A DNA stretch of 32,411 nt. Source: an uncultured Fodinibius sp. (GTDB lineage: Bacteria > Bacteroidota > Rhodothermia > Balneolales > Balneolaceae). The notes under the pieces are model-generated. The model was not told the origin of the DNA. It saw only the letters and a program-made list of their open reading frames with translations, and did not search any database. Made by a program: the position numbers and the translations under genes. Of this stretch, positions 24,948-32,411 are shown in pieces (position 1 is the first letter of the stretch; the number at the start of each line of letters is the position of its first letter). The stretch is taken from NCBI GenBank assembly GCA_913057775.1, contig CAJXOG010000015.1, forward strand, positions 1 to 32,411. Reading direction: 5' to 3'.

Positions 24948-26945
24948 TTAGTTATTTGAAGTATCTTTCTTTGCTGATTCAGTTTTCCAGATATTATTTT
25001 CAGGATTCACATCAGGAAATTCTTTATTTGGATCAATAACCACCTTCTCAAGCGGTGAGGTGGAGTTATACTTGAAAAGCCACTCATTCCCACGATGCCA
25101 GGTGTGCACAGGAAATTCTATTATTTCGGTTTTACCATTTTTCTGAGTGATTTCTATTTTTACAGGCATCACTAACTTACCTTTATTTTTGATGCGGATA
25201 AATGCACCCTTTGAAGGATCTTCATTGGTATAAGCTACTTTATCTACAGCCTGATCCATCGTCCACGTCTTTTCAAACCAGCCCCGCCAGAACCAATCCA
25301 ATTCTCGACCGGTAACATCTTCGATGGTATTGAAAAAATCATCCGGTGTAGGATGCTTATACGCCCATCGATCCACATACGCATTTATAGCTTCATCAAA
25401 AAGCTCTTTCCCGACTATCGATTCGCGAAGTATTTGCAAGCCAAGAGCCGGTTTGTAATACGATACGCGTCCAAAATTCCCTTCTTGAATTTGATCGGGA
25501 GCCGTCATAATGGGTTCAGTATTTTCGCTGGTCAACCAATTATTCAAAAAACGAGCATTACGGGGATTATGATATTCGCCATCATTAAAATTAGCGGTAC
25601 TCAAACTGTTGATAAAGGTATTAAACCCTTCATCCATCCAGGCGTGTTCACGCTCGTTAGAGCCTACAATCATAGGAAACCACTCATGACCAAACTCGTG
25701 ATCAGTAACACCCCATAAGCTAGCTCCCTTAGCTTGCCAGCTACAAAATACAATCCCGGGATATTCCATTCCGCCTACCGTACCGGCTACATTAATTGCA
25801 TTCTCATATGGATATTTTGACAAGTATTCGGAATAAAATTCGATTGATCCTTTAACATATTCCGTAGAACGTCCCCAAGCCGAATCACCAGCTACTTCGG
25901 TTGGATATACCGACATCGCCATCGAAATATCTCCATCAGGTAAATTAATACGCGCGGCATCCCATACAAACGCTTTTGATGCCGCCCAAGCAACATCACG
26001 TGTATTTTCCATCTTGTAGTTCCATGTCAGCCGATCCTTACCTCTAGGCCTAGAATCCTCAGAATCCACTTCATTCTTTCTAATGATATACACCCTTTTG
26101 TCACTATTTCGGGCCTGCTCCATCCGCTTTTGCTGTGTTTTGGTAAGAACATCTTCTGGATTTAAGAGCTCACCGGAAGCCACAACAACATATTCAGCCG
26201 GAGCCGTAATGGAGTAATCGAAGGTCCCGTATTCCATATAAAACTCACCGGCTCCCAAATACGGCATCACATTCCATCCTTTAATATCATCATAGACAGC
26301 CATCCGGGGATACCACTGCGCAACCTCATAGATGACACCATTTTTCGTATCCAGGCGTCCCAATCGATCAGAACCTTGCTCTGGAACTCTAAAACTATAA
26401 TCGATGCTGATTTGTAGCTTACTACCTTCAGCCTCAAGAGCCTCTCTGAGATTCAGTTTCAAATTGGTATCCACTGTATGAGTTTCAGGATTATACGTAT
26501 CACCGTTATGTGTTACTTGAATATTTTCTATGTTAATACCACCATCAAATCCCTCGTTACCAAAACGAGCTCCTCCCAGCGGAGTAAGCTTAGCGCCCCA
26601 AGAGTCCTCCTCAAACAGATCCTGATCGAGTTGCAGCCAGACAAACTCCAAATTCTGAGGACTGTTATTGGTATAATCAATAGTAATAGAGGTTTCTATT
26701 CTATGATCATCGGGATAAAGCTGCGCATCAATGTCATAATCGGCAGCATTCTGCCAGTAGGCTTCGCCCGGCTCACCGCTGGCACTCCGATATATGGTGC
26801 TTTTTCCGGTTTCATAAGGCAAAAAAGCTTCCTGAACCGTATTCGGTGTCTGTTCTTGTGCCTGTAATGTTGTTGCCATCAACATGGACAAAAAAAGAAT
26901 CCATACGAACTTTACTTTCATCATAATATTTGACTGTAGTTTCAT
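24948..26945 (-). CDS. M1 family metallopeptidase (exported aminopeptidase-like)
   Basis: The 665-residue protein begins with a signal peptide; ATG 26921 (M9, giving [14 protein letters not shown]...) or M8 would give a more canonical one than the first ATG. The gluzincin site is complete: HEFGH (416-420) followed by the third zinc ligand E439, exactly 18 residues later (HExxH-X18-E). The substrate-binding GAMEN-like motif reads GGMEYP (391-396), a variant usual in Bacteroidota exported M1 enzymes. A beta-sandwich N-terminal domain (about 65-250) precedes it. Such exported M1 proteins release amino acids from peptides outside the cytoplasm, possibly for nutrition; the exact substrate is unknown. 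It ends at the shared hairpin. Confidence 0.92.
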
Positions 26946-27461
26946 TGAAAAAGTTAGATTTATCTATCCAAACTAATCAGCTGGTGAAAATTTTCAGATT
27001 TATTTTAGCACTTGGAATGCTTGATACCGTGCCATACTCAGGATAGTTTCAGTCACTAATACAATATTACTAAAAATAACCAATTCTACCTGGGAACACA
27101 TATATCGGGCAAAGTAAAGAAATGAAAACACTTGGATTTCTGAATTTTTGATACATGTGCTGAAATTATCGGTACCAGTAGAACACTGATAACTCATTTC
27201 GAAAACTCAATGTTTATGTCCGTATCATCTACAAAAAAACTAAATAATTTGAATTGAATTCTAACTATTAAAGGCTGGTAACACTTAAAATCAGGATAGA
27301 ATTGCATTCAACGGTATGTTCTATCAACAAGTTAAAACCTATTGTCTTAGTACATTAGTAAAATTATGAATCGATTAAATTTATATTCTTGGAAAATATT
27401 TCTCAATTTGAACTAGTCATACCTGTTTTTTTTAGTGTACAATTACTGACATGTAGTAAGA
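26946..27461. other. AT-rich gene-free region upstream of the sigma-factor operon
   Basis: These 516 bases between the M1 peptidase and sigma-factor genes (both pointing away) hold no supported gene. A 65-codon minus-strand frame (27000-27197) lacks features of a protein. The right end carries the promoter-like element at 27412-27439. An inverted repeat GATAGAA/TTCTATC (27295-27301 and 27319-27325) lies about 110 bases before it. Otherwise I see nothing. Confidence 0.7.
27412..27439 (+). promoter_or_regulatory. Two-block promoter element of the sigma-fecR-receptor operon
   Basis: CTAGTCATACC (27413-27423) and TAGTGTA (27433-27439) are separated by 9 T-rich bases, with block spacing suited to an ECF-type -35/-10 pair. 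The end lies 22 bases before the sigma-factor ATG. A near copy with identical spacing precedes the FAS1 gene, which makes this a candidate autoregulated promoter. Confidence 0.6.
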
Positions 27462-28034
27462 ATGGACTCAATTTCTGATAAGCAATTTTCTGAGTGGGCT
27501 CGTAGCATTCAAAGCGGCGACGAAATTGCTTTTAAAAATATGTTTGATGCAACCTTTGAAAATTATGTAAGATATGCTTGGCGGTTTACCAAAAACAAAG
27601 ATTCTGCCATGGATATTGTTCAGGAAAGTTTTATAAAACTTTGGCAGAAACGTTCAAATCTAGATCCTTCAAAATCATTGAAAACCTATTTATACCGGAT
27701 CGTGAAAAACAATTCACTCAATTATTTACGCGATACCCGCCAACACACAACACAGATGGAGGACGTGCAAATTGCTGACGATAGTTCAATCGTTTTTGAA
27801 GAAGATCAGGAATCAGAATTACTAGAGCCGTTAAAAAAGTGGATTGATGAATTGCCCGACAGACAGCAGGAAGCATTTAAATTAAGCAGATATGAAGGGC
27901 TTTCCCACGATGAAATTGCTGAAATTATGGATATATCAGCACGTACAGTAAATAACCACATTGTTGCAGCACTCAATAACCTTCAGGAAAGGTACAAATC
28001 CTACAAGGACGTTAGTGGCAAACATTATGAATAG
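27462..28034 (+). CDS. ECF RNA polymerase sigma factor (FecI-like)
   Basis: The 190-residue protein has region 2 (about 15-95, DIVQESFIKLWQKR at 51-64, followed by the family's YLYRIVKNNSLNYLR) and region 4 (about 121-175, LPDRQQEAFKLSRYEGLSHDEIAE, HTH at VNNHIVAALNNL), without regions 1 or 3. This is the ECF class. The gene is followed by a FecR anti-sigma gene whose start overlaps it by 8 bases, then by a TonB receptor with an STN domain, so it is the sigma of a cell-surface signalling system. It is presumably held inactive by FecR until the receptor senses its ligand. The ATG 27462 follows the two-block element closely. Confidence 0.95.
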   Translation: MDSISDKQFSEWARSIQSGDEIAFKNMFDATFENYVRYAWRFTKNKDSAMDIVQESFIKLWQKRSNLDPSKSLKTYLYRIVKNNSLNYLRDTRQHTTQMEDVQIADDSSIVFEEDQESELLEPLKKWIDELPDRQQEAFKLSRYEGLSHDEIAEIMDISARTVNNHIVAALNNLQERYKSYKDVSGKHYE

Positions 28035-28992
28035 CAAAAATTCCTTTAACAACTGGCTAAATAAATTCCTGGATGAATTGGATCAGGAAAAACAAGAAAA
28101 TGTTGAGAAAATTTGGACAGAAGCAAAAAGAACTGATGAAAGTCAGAAGGTATCTGTTTCCGAAGAGGAAAAGGATAAAGTATTTGCTACTATCGCTTCA
28201 CAAACTGGAATAGATACTGATACTAAAGATAAAGATGATGAACCCAAACCAACGAAAATCAGAACATTAAATTGGAGATGGATAGCGGCTGCAGCAACTA
28301 TCGTTATTGCGGCAGGTTTATCCTATCTTGCTATACCGGTACAATACTCAGCCTCATATGGAGAAATGGCTACCGTAACTTTGCCTGACCAATCTACTGT
28401 TACGCTTAATAGCGGCTCATCTATCACTTACAATCGACTATTCAATTTAATCGACAGAGAAGTTTCTTTAGAAGGTGAAGCGTATTTTGAAGTTGAAAAT
28501 AGGAATCTTCCCTTCATAGTACATACCTCAAACGCAACCGTAAAGGTATTGGGAACTTCTTTTAATATTCGCTCTTGGAAAGATAGTCCGGTACCGGAAA
28601 CATCAGTGCTTTTAACGGAAGGATCACTTGCTTTTTATCCTACCGAGAAACCTGATAAGTCCGTTATTCTGGAACCCAGTCAAAAAAGCAGTCTTAAAAA
28701 TATTGATGGAATTCCAGAACAGCCTTTTGATGTTTCTAAAGATAAAACTTTAGCTTGGATGAATAATCAATTTGCCTTCGAAAATGTGCCTTTAATACAA
28801 ATTATTAGAGAAATAGAGAGGCGATTTGATCTTAATATTCAAGTAGAACCGAAAGAGGTGTTATTTGATACCCTCACCATATACTACAATAACAAAGTGG
28901 ATGCTGATCAAATTGTACAGGATATTTGTCAGAGCAAAGCACTGAAGTATCGAAAAATAAATGGCGGATTTATCATAGAAAACAAGAGATGA
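28027..28992 (+). CDS. FecR-type anti-sigma factor with DUF4974 domain
   Basis: The frame is open from 27961, but ATG 28027 (8 bases inside the sigma gene) gives a sensible 321-residue protein. A cytoplasmic N-terminal helical part (about 1-80) precedes one transmembrane helix (about 85-103, WIAAAATIVIAAGLSYLAI). The periplasmic FecR domain (about 112-235) contains YGEMATVTLPDQSTVTLNSG and EVSLEGEAYFEV. The C-terminal DUF4974 domain (about 245-321) contains FENVPLIQIIREIERRF and ends in NGGFIIENK. By the FecIR model, it binds the sigma factor on the inside and the receptor's STN domain in the periplasm. The receptor gene starts 22 bases after its stop. Confidence 0.94.
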   Translation: MNSKNSFNNWLNKFLDELDQEKQENVEKIWTEAKRTDESQKVSVSEEEKDKVFATIASQTGIDTDTKDKDDEPKPTKIRTLNWRWIAAAATIVIAAGLSYLAIPVQYSASYGEMATVTLPDQSTVTLNSGSSITYNRLFNLIDREVSLEGEAYFEVENRNLPFIVHTSNATVKVLGTSFNIRSWKDSPVPETSVLLTEGSLAFYPTEKPDKSVILEPSQKSSLKNIDGIPEQPFDVSKDKTLAWMNNQFAFENVPLIQIIREIERRFDLNIQVEPKEVLFDTLTIYYNNKVDADQIVQDICQSKALKYRKINGGFIIENKR

Positions 28993-29014
28993 TCAATTCT
29001 TTTACTGCATCGGC

Positions 29015-31795
29015 ATGAAATTAAAGAGTATACTGCTATTTTATTTACTTTTATTCTCAATGTCTTCCAGTTTTGCTCAAAACAATGGCAGAACGGCATC
29101 CGAAAGATATACCCTCATGTTTCGCGGAACACCCATCGAAGAAGCGATTAAAGAACTTGTTGACAAAACTCAAATTGACCTTATATATGATTCGTCAATC
29201 TTAAGCTCTCAGCAAGTTTTTAGCCTTTCAAAAAATCAAACGCCGGAACAGATTCTTTCCAATATTTTGGAAGGTACCAACCTGGATTATATCCAGCTTT
29301 CCTCGGGCACGTATGTCATTATTAAATCTGCTCAAAATCGATCCCGGTATGGCAGTTTGGCCGGCATGGTACTTGATAAGAATACGGGAAAGCCTCTTGA
29401 AGACGCAAACATTTTAATTGCTGATGCTTCTACCGGGACTTCTTCCAACAGCGCGGGACGGTTTACTATTGCTCCATTGTTAACCGGCAAATATGAAGTA
29501 GCCGTTACCTATGTAGGTTACAGAACCGTGAGAGATACTGTTTCCATCCCACTAAATAGTGAAAACCCACGTAAGTTCTACCTAGAATCCCGTCCGGTAT
29601 TTATTGAACCACTGGTGGTATCAAGTATACAGCCAAGACTACCCTATAATAAATCAGGAAGTGAAGAGGTGAATAACCTCACACAAACACTTTCTTCTTA
29701 TACCGGTTCTCCCGATGCCATGAAAAGTGTGCAATCCGTAATGGGTGTTAATTTCAGTATTCCTTTGGCTGATTTTAATATTCAAGGTGGGGCGGAAGGA
29801 GAAAACCAGGTTATGCTGGATGGTGTACCTATTTACAATCCAGTCAGCTTTGGCAGGTTAACTGGTGCCTTTAGTCCCTACGCCTTACAAAAAGTTACTG
29901 TGCACAAAGCCGGCTACCGACCCTCGATTGGCAGTCAGCTCTCCGGTATTATTTCTATAACCCAAGATCTGCCGGGTGAAGAGGAAAACAATGCCATGCT
30001 GCAGGCTGATCCGCTTAGTCTAAATGGCCGGATAAACCTGACAACATCACTTGGTAAAGGGATCGAGTATAAAACTATGATAGCAGGTAGAACAAATATC
30101 TGGAGATGGTACCAAAAACCTACCCTTTCTAATACCCTTGAAAATTGGGACCGTCTGGATCCCATAATTTCCGGCAACCTGATTAACAATGGCATGGACG
30201 GAATACTTTTTGAACAGGCTAGTCATCAATCCAATGTCAATTTCTATGATTTGCACTGGAGCAATGAAATAGCATTCAATGATTTTCATACGACTTACTT
30301 GAGCTACTATCGGGGCAAAAACTACCTTCAGACCCGTCTGCTTTCCAACAATAGTGATCAGGATGGAACCCCTGAGTCGATGTATACCCGCGATACCTAT
30401 GACTGGATGAATGATATATTACGATTGGAACATAACTGGCTGATCAATTCCCGCTGGCAGACCCAATTCAGCCTTTCCTATTCCAATCATTACTCAAATC
30501 ATCACTTTGGCATGGCAAGCACTGAGGATATTGCTTCAGTACCCGGCAATAATAACCAGCTTATAAACAACTTGGATCAATATATTGACAGCCAACCTCA
30601 CACAGGTGATCAAAGTTCAATCAGGGAGTATTCTTTTAATGCAAATTTTGAATATAGCCTGAATCGAAATCATAAACTGAACTTCGGTATTGAGCCAAAA
30701 ATTGTAGATTACTCTTTTAAGCTGTCAGATCTATTTTACCACTTCTCTTCTTCCCGCAGTTCAACCTTTCTGTTATCAGGATTTCTTGAAGATGATTATA
30801 CACTTAATCTTAATACAAAAATTACCACGGGATCAAGATTTACCTATGTCCCAAACCGGCAGAAGTTTTTTCTGGAACCCCGAATTTCCGCCCAGACTGA
30901 TTTCCAGGAAACCACCTTGGGCTTTGTTTCATTAAGGTTGTCAGGAGGATTATACCGGCAGTATGTAAATCAGTTTGATGTGACCAATGTAGGCCCCAGT
31001 TCCATTGTTCCCTCAATCCGTTTTTGGGTACCGGTTGACTTTACCACAGATGTTCCGAAATCATATCATACCAGTTCTGAGATTCTTGTGGAACCCCAAG
31101 AAACCCTCTCACTAAAATGGGAAGGATATTACAAATGGAACCCCACTATTTTGATGCTTGACTACCATGCCCTTCTGGAACAGCCTGATGATCCAAATGC
31201 CAAATTTGACAGACAGAGCACTTTTATTGAACATGGCAAAAGATATAGCTACGGTACCGGTGTTAGTGCTGAGAAGCTTTTTGAGGAGCTGATGATGGAG
31301 TTAAGCTTGTCTTATGAATACAGTATTTCCAAGCAGAGAAGTCCCAAACGATTTAACGCCCAATATGTCACAGCACCTTGGAATGAACCTCACAAGCTTA
31401 CGGCCGCTGTCAACTGGAATATATTTTCTTCTTTCATGATAACAGTCAGGTGGCAGAGCATTTGGGGAAGAAGCTGGGCCTTCAATAAATCATACTATGA
31501 TTACCTGCCCATCAATAACAATCGCTCACAATATGGCACCGTCGATTTCAACAGCCCATCCAACGATATCCTAAGTCCCTATCACCAGCTCGATGTCGGC
31601 TTCAACTGGTCATGGGATTTAAACGATTCAAAAATTAAGCTAAGACTGGATTTGGTCAATTTGTTAGATCGAAAAAATACCCTGGAAAAGAGATTGATCC
31701 CGGAACAATCATCACAGGGTGCCCTGCAGTACGCCATCCAACGAAAAAACCTGCCTGGATTTACCCCTTCTGTCGGTATTCGATTTATTTATTAA
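29015..31795 (+). CDS. TonB-dependent outer-membrane receptor with STN signalling domain
   Basis: The 926-residue protein has a signal peptide (hydrophobic about 5-18, cleavage at SSFAQ near 22). Next is an STN domain (about 31-104, RYTLMFRGTPIEEAIKELV to GTYVIIK), a carboxypeptidase-regulatory-like domain (about 113-195, GSLAGMVLDKNTGKPLEDAN), a plug (about 225-315, NIQGGAEGENQVMLDGVPIYNP) and a long beta-barrel ending in GFTPSVGIRFIY with an aromatic C-terminus. The STN domain marks it as a signal-transducing receptor acting with the FecR/sigma pair upstream. Its substrate is unknown; no siderophore or glycan gene is visible nearby. No SusD follows: the next gene is a FAS1 lipoprotein. Confidence 0.95.
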   Translation: MKLKSILLFYLLLFSMSSSFAQNNGRTASERYTLMFRGTPIEEAIKELVDKTQIDLIYDSSILSSQQVFSLSKNQTPEQILSNILEGTNLDYIQLSSGTYVIIKSAQNRSRYGSLAGMVLDKNTGKPLEDANILIADASTGTSSNSAGRFTIAPLLTGKYEVAVTYVGYRTVRDTVSIPLNSENPRKFYLESRPVFIEPLVVSSIQPRLPYNKSGSEEVNNLTQTLSSYTGSPDAMKSVQSVMGVNFSIPLADFNIQGGAEGENQVMLDGVPIYNPVSFGRLTGAFSPYALQKVTVHKAGYRPSIGSQLSGIISITQDLPGEEENNAMLQADPLSLNGRINLTTSLGKGIEYKTMIAGRTNIWRWYQKPTLSNTLENWDRLDPIISGNLINNGMDGILFEQASHQSNVNFYDLHWSNEIAFNDFHTTYLSYYRGKNYLQTRLLSNNSDQDGTPESMYTRDTYDWMNDILRLEHNWLINSRWQTQFSLSYSNHYSNHHFGMASTEDIASVPGNNNQLINNLDQYIDSQPHTGDQSSIREYSFNANFEYSLNRNHKLNFGIEPKIVDYSFKLSDLFYHFSSSRSSTFLLSGFLEDDYTLNLNTKITTGSRFTYVPNRQKFFLEPRISAQTDFQETTLGFVSLRLSGGLYRQYVNQFDVTNVGPSSIVPSIRFWVPVDFTTDVPKSYHTSSEILVEPQETLSLKWEGYYKWNPTILMLDYHALLEQPDDPNAKFDRQSTFIEHGKRYSYGTGVSAEKLFEELMMELSLSYEYSISKQRSPKRFNAQYVTAPWNEPHKLTAAVNWNIFSSFMITVRWQSIWGRSWAFNKSYYDYLPINNNRSQYGTVDFNSPSNDILSPYHQLDVGFNWSWDLNDSKIKLRLDLVNLLDRKNTLEKRLIPEQSSQGALQYAIQRKNLPGFTPSVGIRFIY

Positions 31796-31809
31796 AAAAA
31801 TCAGTGCCG

Positions 31810-31837
31810 ACTAGTCATACCCTTTTTTTCTAGTGTA
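31810..31837 (+). promoter_or_regulatory. Second copy of the two-block promoter element, before the FAS1 gene
   Basis: CTAGTCATACC (31811-31821) and TAGTGTA (31831-31837) are separated by 9 bases, the same distance as at 27412-27439. Over the 27 positions 24 are identical. It starts 15 bases after the receptor stop and ends 54 bases before ATG 31892. Confidence 0.6.
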
Positions 31838-31891
31838 TATAAGTGTGAACTCAAATTATTAACTAATTCACACTATATATTATATACTATT

Positions 31892-32411
31892 ATGGAAACA
31901 ACAACTCACAATCCCTTAATAAAACTAAGAACGTTTCTGTTCAATAGTTTTATTGCAGTTCTATTAGTATTTACGCTACAAGCGTGTGGTGGCGATGACG
32001 ACGGTCCCACGGACCCGCCGAGCGAAACAGGAAATATTGTTGAAGTCGCTCAGTCAAATGACGATTTCAGTGATCTTGTTTCAGCCTTAAGTGATGCCGG
32101 TTTGGTATCTACTCTCGAAGGTGATGGCCCGTTTACGGTCTTCGCCCCGACCAACGATGCGTTCGCTAATCTTGGGGTCGATATTTCCACGCTCTCAACT
32201 GAACAGCTCGAAGAAGTACTCAGCTATCATGTCGTAAGCGGAAATATCGCATCAGGTGACCTTACTCCACCACAATCTGCCGCAGCACTTGCCGGAGGAG
32301 ACCTCTTTATTACGAGCGCCGACGGCAATGTCACTGTCAATGACAATGCCACGGTCGTGAATGCCGATATCGAAGCCTCCAATGGCATCATCCATGCTGT
32401 CGATCAGGTGT
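31892..32411 (+). CDS. FAS1 (fasciclin) domain surface lipoprotein (partial, runs off the window)
   Basis: The 5' part of a gene is cut by the window edge with no stop, giving 173 residues. It starts METTTHNPLIKLRTF, then a hydrophobic stretch and a lipobox (LQAC, Cys at about 32), so it should be an outer-membrane lipoprotein. The first residues after the Cys are GGDDDGP, an acid-rich start of the kind used as a lipoprotein surface-export signal in Bacteroidota. The FAS1 domain begins near residue 48; the two conserved boxes are seen: FTVFAPTNDAF (H1) and NGIIHAVDQV (H2) at the window edge. FAS1 domains mediate adhesion or protein contacts. It has its own copy of the two-block promoter. Base composition is richer in G+C than the preceding operon. 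Confidence 0.9.
   Translation, partial: METTTHNPLIKLRTFLFNSFIAVLLVFTLQACGGDDDGPTDPPSETGNIVEVAQSNDDFSDLVSALSDAGLVSTLEGDGPFTVFAPTNDAFANLGVDISTLSTEQLEEVLSYHVVSGNIASGDLTPPQSAAALAGGDLFITSADGNVTVNDNATVVNADIEASNGIIHAVDQV

Follow-up and report, generated by a model that had tools for sequence, protein, structure and literature searches.

Matching two-block elements before an ECF sigma operon and a FAS1 gene in an uncultured Fodinibius sp., predicted to be promoters of the encoded sigma factor

The window, that is the whole stretch of 32,411 nucleotides analysed, spans all of contig C15 of an uncultured Fodinibius sp. Four genes are arranged at the locus in the order ECF sigma factor, FecR anti-sigma factor, STN/plug receptor, and FAS1 (Table 1). 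Systems of sigma factor, anti-sigma factor and receptor are widespread among bacteria of this group. As the window is the entire contig, it covers just the first 173 codons of the FAS1 gene. The receptor STN domain (PF07660) scored above its cut-off, and the plug domain (PF07715) reached 22.4 bits, slightly under the cut-off of 23.9. Solved chains related to the FecR protein are 4m0n and 4m0h, and no solved structure related by sequence to the receptor was found. No SusD was found among the four proteins scanned at the locus, the contig ending within FAS1. An Rfam search of 26800-32411 gave no match, and a search of named organisms with the sigma factor recovered six loci, all distant. A second FAS1 copy (L121; G000 contig C8, 1-523, minus strand), with a protein 86% identical to that of the window, is cut by the end of contig C8, and its upstream region lacks the element described below; a frame that looks RuvB-like by eye ends before it. 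The near-repeat FAS1 copies are a likely cause of the assembly break between C15 and C8.

Table 1. Genes and predicted promoter elements at the sigma-FAS1 locus (positions in the window)
Feature	Position	Strand	Basis and remarks
-35 element TAGTCAT, sigma operon promoter (predicted)	27414..27420	+	motif reading and comparison; core TC goes with Arg161
-10 element AGTGTA, sigma operon promoter (predicted)	27434..27439	+	preceded by T-rich 13-base spacer
ECF sigma factor	27462..28034	+	TIGR02985 (Sig70_bacteroi1) above cut-off; Sigma70_r2, Sigma70_r4_2
Arg161 codon	27942..27944	+	first part of sigma4 recognition helix; residue associated with the -35 core; alignment
FecR anti-sigma factor	28030..28992	+	FecR (PF04773) and FecR_C (PF16344) above cut-off
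Outer-membrane receptor	29015..31795	+	STN, CarboxypepD_reg and TonB plug domains
-35 element TAGTCAT before FAS1 (predicted)	31812..31818	+	motif match, comparison of FAS1 loci
-10 element AGTGTA before FAS1 (predicted)	31832..31837	+	13-base spacing as at the sigma operon
FAS1 (fasciclin) domain protein	31892..32411	+	domain match; lipoprotein-like start by eye; gene cut by contig end

The element CTAGTCATACC-N9-TAGTGTA lies at 27413-27439 and again at 31811-31837, both on the plus strand, with 24 of 27 bases identical between the copies and equal spacing. Gaps to the annotated ATG codons are 22 bases for the sigma gene and 54 bases for the FAS1 gene, as the initial annotation had given them. 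It had noticed no further copy of the pair in the window, and comparison of the whole window revealed no other direct-orientation pair of 27-mers with at least 24/27 identity. At up to three mismatches, the motif has two matches in the window, with 0.01 expected from shuffles. Both spacers contain runs of 7 or 8 T. When the AT-rich region before the sigma gene was shuffled, 2 of 100 base shuffles reached an equal score. The genome (3,113,415 bases in 21 contigs) was searched with TAGTCATACC-N9-TAGTGTA, and nine matches at up to three mismatches were found, namely the two of the window at 0 mismatches and seven at 3 (7 + 9 matches in the reversed-motif control); the window's two sites are the only ones of the genome at up to two mismatches. 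A flood of matches away from gene starts, named beforehand as the outcome that would speak against a promoter role, was not found.

Relatives were sampled as 92 genomes of the family, and the receptor search gave 43 matches in 40 of them. The resulting set of 42 family loci includes the window's own, and contig ends truncate several of them. Upstream regions of the sigma genes share a TAGxyA block, a spacer of 13 bases (L046 has 14), and a GTGT-like block shortly before the start in 37 of 40 genes, 38 of which come from operons and two (L167 and L147) were located via the TAGTCAT pattern itself; five of the 37 sites have an imperfect block. Genes without a site are L058 and L063, both truncated, and L082, where none was found. 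The general form before the sigma genes of relatives is TAGxyAT-N13-nGTGTA; the conserved portion of the window's element is TAGTCAT-N13-nGTGTA, and the ACC next to TAGTCAT varies. The best shared 27-mer between sigma and FAS1 upstream regions separated the loci poorly, as a score of at least 20/27 was found for just 6 of 24 pairs from one locus and also for 37 of 864 pairs across loci, and the two-block motif was therefore adopted. A single motif for all such operons was ruled out too, as the core varies with the sigma class. At up to one mismatch, the strict motif occurs in the 92 genomes twice in G000, twice in G034, and once in G088. Both matches in G034 precede FAS1 genes, of which one follows the orthologous receptor (77% identical) and the other, unlinked, starts 49 bp after its match; the match in G088 lies inside a frame unrelated to the sigma operon or FAS1 genes.

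The core xy agrees with the residue preceding TVNNHI in the sigma4 recognition helix, which is Arg161 in the window, at 37/37 family sites (35/35 if the pattern-located L167 and L147 are excluded). Arginine is paired with TC at 11 sites, lysine with GT at 19, and asparagine, serine, or tryptophan with TT at 7. This column was the most informative of the alignment columns scored, with 1.47 bits vs 1.01 for the next. In the alignment, Arg161 falls opposite a glycine in sigma E of E. coli, which we take to be Gly168. Residue classes cluster on the sigma tree with four changes, and 37/37 thus overstates the independence of the sites.

The residue-core rule had been noted before loci of other families were fetched as holdouts, and the 80 holdout loci are part of the other-family matches listed. 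In the first holdout (40 loci, 39 with a sigma gene, 13 under a 10-bit threshold that was derived from that scan's own shuffles), the predicted core was found in 22 of 26 confident sites among the matches listed (permutation p 0.0002), the upstream sequences having been read before the scoring script was written; 25/39 match without the threshold. The procedure and the 10-bit threshold were set in advance for the second holdout (40 loci, 37 scored, 29 below threshold), several loci of which come from genomes also present in the first. All 8 confident sites among the matches listed were as predicted, with a permutation p of 0.12 taken alone, because nearly all of them pair lysine with GT; 22/37 match without the threshold. 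In both holdouts together, 30/34 confident sites among the matches listed agree, and 0 of 50,000 permutations were as good. All four misses belong to family f2 and are of the R type with GT or TT cores (L244, L254, L267, and L257), and L247, L248, L251, and L252 of the same family obey the rule. Before these four R-type sigma genes TAGGTAT or TAGTTGT is found, and close relatives retain TC; another residue may compensate in the exceptions. R-type sites of family f16, under threshold, are mostly TAGGCAT or TAGGCAC, with G first and C second in the core. On a joint tree of 63 sigma factors, the core needs 10 changes and the residue 7. Among at most five independent (starred) pairs differing in TC, a mean of 3.4 agree, 0 disagree, and 1.6 are without a residue difference, a number of pairs with which the sign test cannot attain 0.05. 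By association, the motif fits the sigma factor's own specificity both in the family and in other families.

FAS1 genes are present in 22 of the 42 family loci: in nine behind the receptor on its strand, in 12 divergent before the sigma gene, and in one elsewhere. A scoring matrix that ignored xy and left the window's sigma site out of its construction detected the element in 9/9 loci before the first FAS1 gene that follows the receptor on its strand, at 12.0 to 19.9 bits and with core TC every time; 0 of 200 shuffles were as good. The same matrix scan found the element in 0 of 13 FAS1 genes otherwise placed near an operon of the family loci, and the second FAS1 gene of L047 is without it. The possibility that divergent FAS1 genes have the element in common was rejected (0/12). 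Instead, 11 of these 12 (L057, L060, L065, L069-L075, and L083) share a leader like AATCCTTAACCCCA right before the start, a pattern written after inspection of the upstream sequences, and in view of it the divergent genes seem to be under another common control. In other families, a TC site above 11 bits was found in two of three FAS1 genes examined (L236 and L243, not L255). At L048 (G074 contig C41), a TAGTCAT element behind the receptor has no FAS1 gene after it, and a GC-rich inverted repeat with a T run was seen by eye within about 150 bases after the element, which may mark a lost gene or a short RNA.

The three dialects, TAGTCAT, TAGTTAT, and TAGGTAT, were searched as exact patterns, which gave 86 distinct sites in the 92 genomes. 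The total of TAGTCAT matches across the genomes does not exceed that of the reversed control, and the argument therefore rests on the position of the sites. Genomes with an operon of the same class have 60 exact sites, 57 of them intergenic and 48 at the same time within 110 bp of a gene start; for genomes with another class, the latter number is 5 of 10. Where the system was counted as lacking, 1 of 16 sites is intergenic near a gene start and 11 lie in coding regions, the classes having been assigned by hand and G027, with a cut operon, being counted here. Among the 48 promoter-placed sites, 18 are at sigma genes that helped to define the pattern; nine of the other 30 are at FAS1 genes, and one is at a doubtful frame (L154). 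What follows the exact matches in same-class genomes is mostly a sigma, FAS1, serpin, or other lipoprotein-like gene. Pfam assigned a family to 12 of 27 proteins behind the sites, some of them from other-class genomes, and none to 15. These were serpin (G011, G055, and G064), BsuPI and an outer-membrane barrel (G074), DUF6174 (G016 and G067), DUF4377 (G068 and G074), LVIVD (G065), a sorting tail (G033), and a weak barrel match (G016). The serpins, together with BsuPI, hint at protease inhibitors in the regulon.

The element before serpin genes is TAGTTAT in the S-type genome G011 and TAGGTAT in the K-type genomes G055 and G064; before FAS1 genes it is TAGTCAT in R-type genomes and TAGTTAT in the S-type G011 and G012. 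As these sites follow the sigma type, targets of the same kind appear to switch dialect along with the sigma factor. Counterexamples are the N-type G017 and G018, where TAGTCAT precedes a FAS1 gene and a lipoprotein-like gene, and the R-type G010, G033, G067, and G074, with TAGTTAT sites before exported-protein genes. The serpin lipoproteins of L193, L203, and L207 are directly behind their sigma's own dialect element in three genomes; the start of L205, which was outside the Pfam scan, resembles that of L207. In G016 (contig C41, L197/L198), two TAGTTAT elements 149 bases apart precede one 486-codon frame that adjoins the second operon of that genome.

In the window's genome, 19 of 23 ECF-like loci were scorable, with the window's at 16.9 bits and the next at 9.5. 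Of seven FAS1 genes there, only the window's has the element (16.9 bits vs 6.3). Further targets at one mismatch were rejected, as 12 extra matches were found, below the 17 + 21 of the control; eight of the 12 are inside open frames longer than 300 bases, and of the remaining four only L276 is promoter-like in placement (479-aa frame 47 bp on). The regulon in this genome may be two promoters.

An element is thus shared by the promoter regions of sigma genes and of candidate target genes, and very probably the ECF sigma factor encoded beside the first window copy uses both copies as promoters and would thereby drive its own operon and FAS1. The use of both sites by this sigma factor agrees with where they lie, how their blocks are spaced, their conservation ahead of sigma and FAS1 orthologues, and the residue-core tracking, so that comparison argues well for the autoregulation and FAS1 activation proposed by the initial annotation. 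FAS1 follows the receptor on its strand after a gap of 97 bases, in which a strong terminator was not called, and the region has two weak terminator-like sites vs 4.5 in shuffles, all of which would suit expression of FAS1 mainly by read-through from the sigma operon, with the second element adding little. Such a reading is improbable, given that the element is kept before FAS1 in all nine same-strand loci and also precedes unlinked FAS1 genes in G034, G011, and G012. Slightly less probable still are operators of a separate transcription factor, with the transcripts made by another sigma; shared DNA sites by themselves cannot tell promoter from operator, but the two blocks keep a nearly fixed spacing of 13, and the first, both within the family and in others, goes with the residue that the neighbouring sigma has in its recognition helix. 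That the sites serve a different sigma as promoters, housekeeping or another ECF, is very unlikely. A weak sigma70-like match (9/12) overlaps the first site at 27414-27443 and ECF-like genes are numerous in the genome (23 matches), but such sigma70-like matches number 22 in the region vs 15.7 (sd 4.1) in shuffles, which weakens the overlap; moreover, sigma genes of this operon type have the same site before them class-wide, where it tracks their own residue, and the matches in genomes counted as without the operon are mainly in coding regions. Chance or a recent functionless copy, suggested by there being just two copies in the genome, can practically be dismissed in view of the 0.01 matches expected, the lack of any similar pair in the window, and the recurrence of the arrangement in other genera with diverged spacers (9/9 comparable loci).

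With both sites read as promoters of the encoded ECF sigma factor (-35 TAGTCAT, 13-base spacer, -10 nGTGTA), the following circuit is proposed. FecR would keep the sigma factor inactive until the STN signalling domain of the receptor reports an outside ligand. The freed sigma factor would then bind and transcribe its own sigma-fecR-receptor operon, in positive feedback, and the downstream FAS1 gene from the second promoter, with Arg161 of the recognition helix presumably setting the TC of the -35 core. In relatives, sigma factors of the same kind probably also drive unlinked surface proteins, serpins included.

The system is a variant of FecI/FecR surface signalling. As in FecI/FecR/FecA of E. 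coli, an ECF sigma factor, a FecR regulator, and an STN-domain receptor are clustered together. In E. coli, fecIR shows no autoregulation, and the single promoter served by FecI is that before fecA (PMC9249621). Here, the element precedes the whole sigma operon, receptor included, which points to autoregulation, and further predicted promoters are at FAS1 and, in relatives, at other exported-protein genes. HemI of Stenotrophomonas, a FecI-like sigma, was also found not to be autoregulated, in a study that describes many ECF sigmas as autoregulated (PMC12772443). In Bacteroides, an anti-sigma factor joined to an outer-membrane porin releases a sigma factor (PMC3878776). The window resembles the ECF sigma/anti-sigma/SusC-like systems of Bacteroides in its sigma model, TIGR02985, and differs from them in that FAS1 is the gene behind the receptor and no SusD was found among the four scanned proteins. 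In that study, ECF promoter prediction was called challenging; here the motif is readable by comparison. The T runs of both window spacers agree with the T-tract in ECF spacers described in PMC11588781, where it is also stated that few residue-base pairs govern ECF promoter choice (Todor et al. 2020). By comparison with this -35 specificity code, here one position goes with three dialects in one operon type, and targets such as FAS1 and serpins shift along with the sigma factor. A literature search joining FAS1 with ECF, FecR, or anti-sigma, with most subscription journals outside its reach, found no paper treating both and no precedent for FAS1 and serpin lipoproteins in a surface-sensing circuit.

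The mechanism is known in kind, and new here are the one-residue dialects and the targets, namely FAS1, serpins, and other lipoproteins. With confidence evenly balanced, we propose that a class-wide self-activating surface-signalling sigma factor deploys FAS1, serpins, and other lipoproteins, and that sigma and dispersed targets would have switched dialects together, mainly via one recognition-helix residue, keeping parallel systems within one cell (as in G016, G034, and G069) apart. FAS1 and serpin lipoproteins would in this way be tied to a surface-sensing circuit, and the readable motif with its one-residue code makes the regulons predictable from sequence and directly testable.
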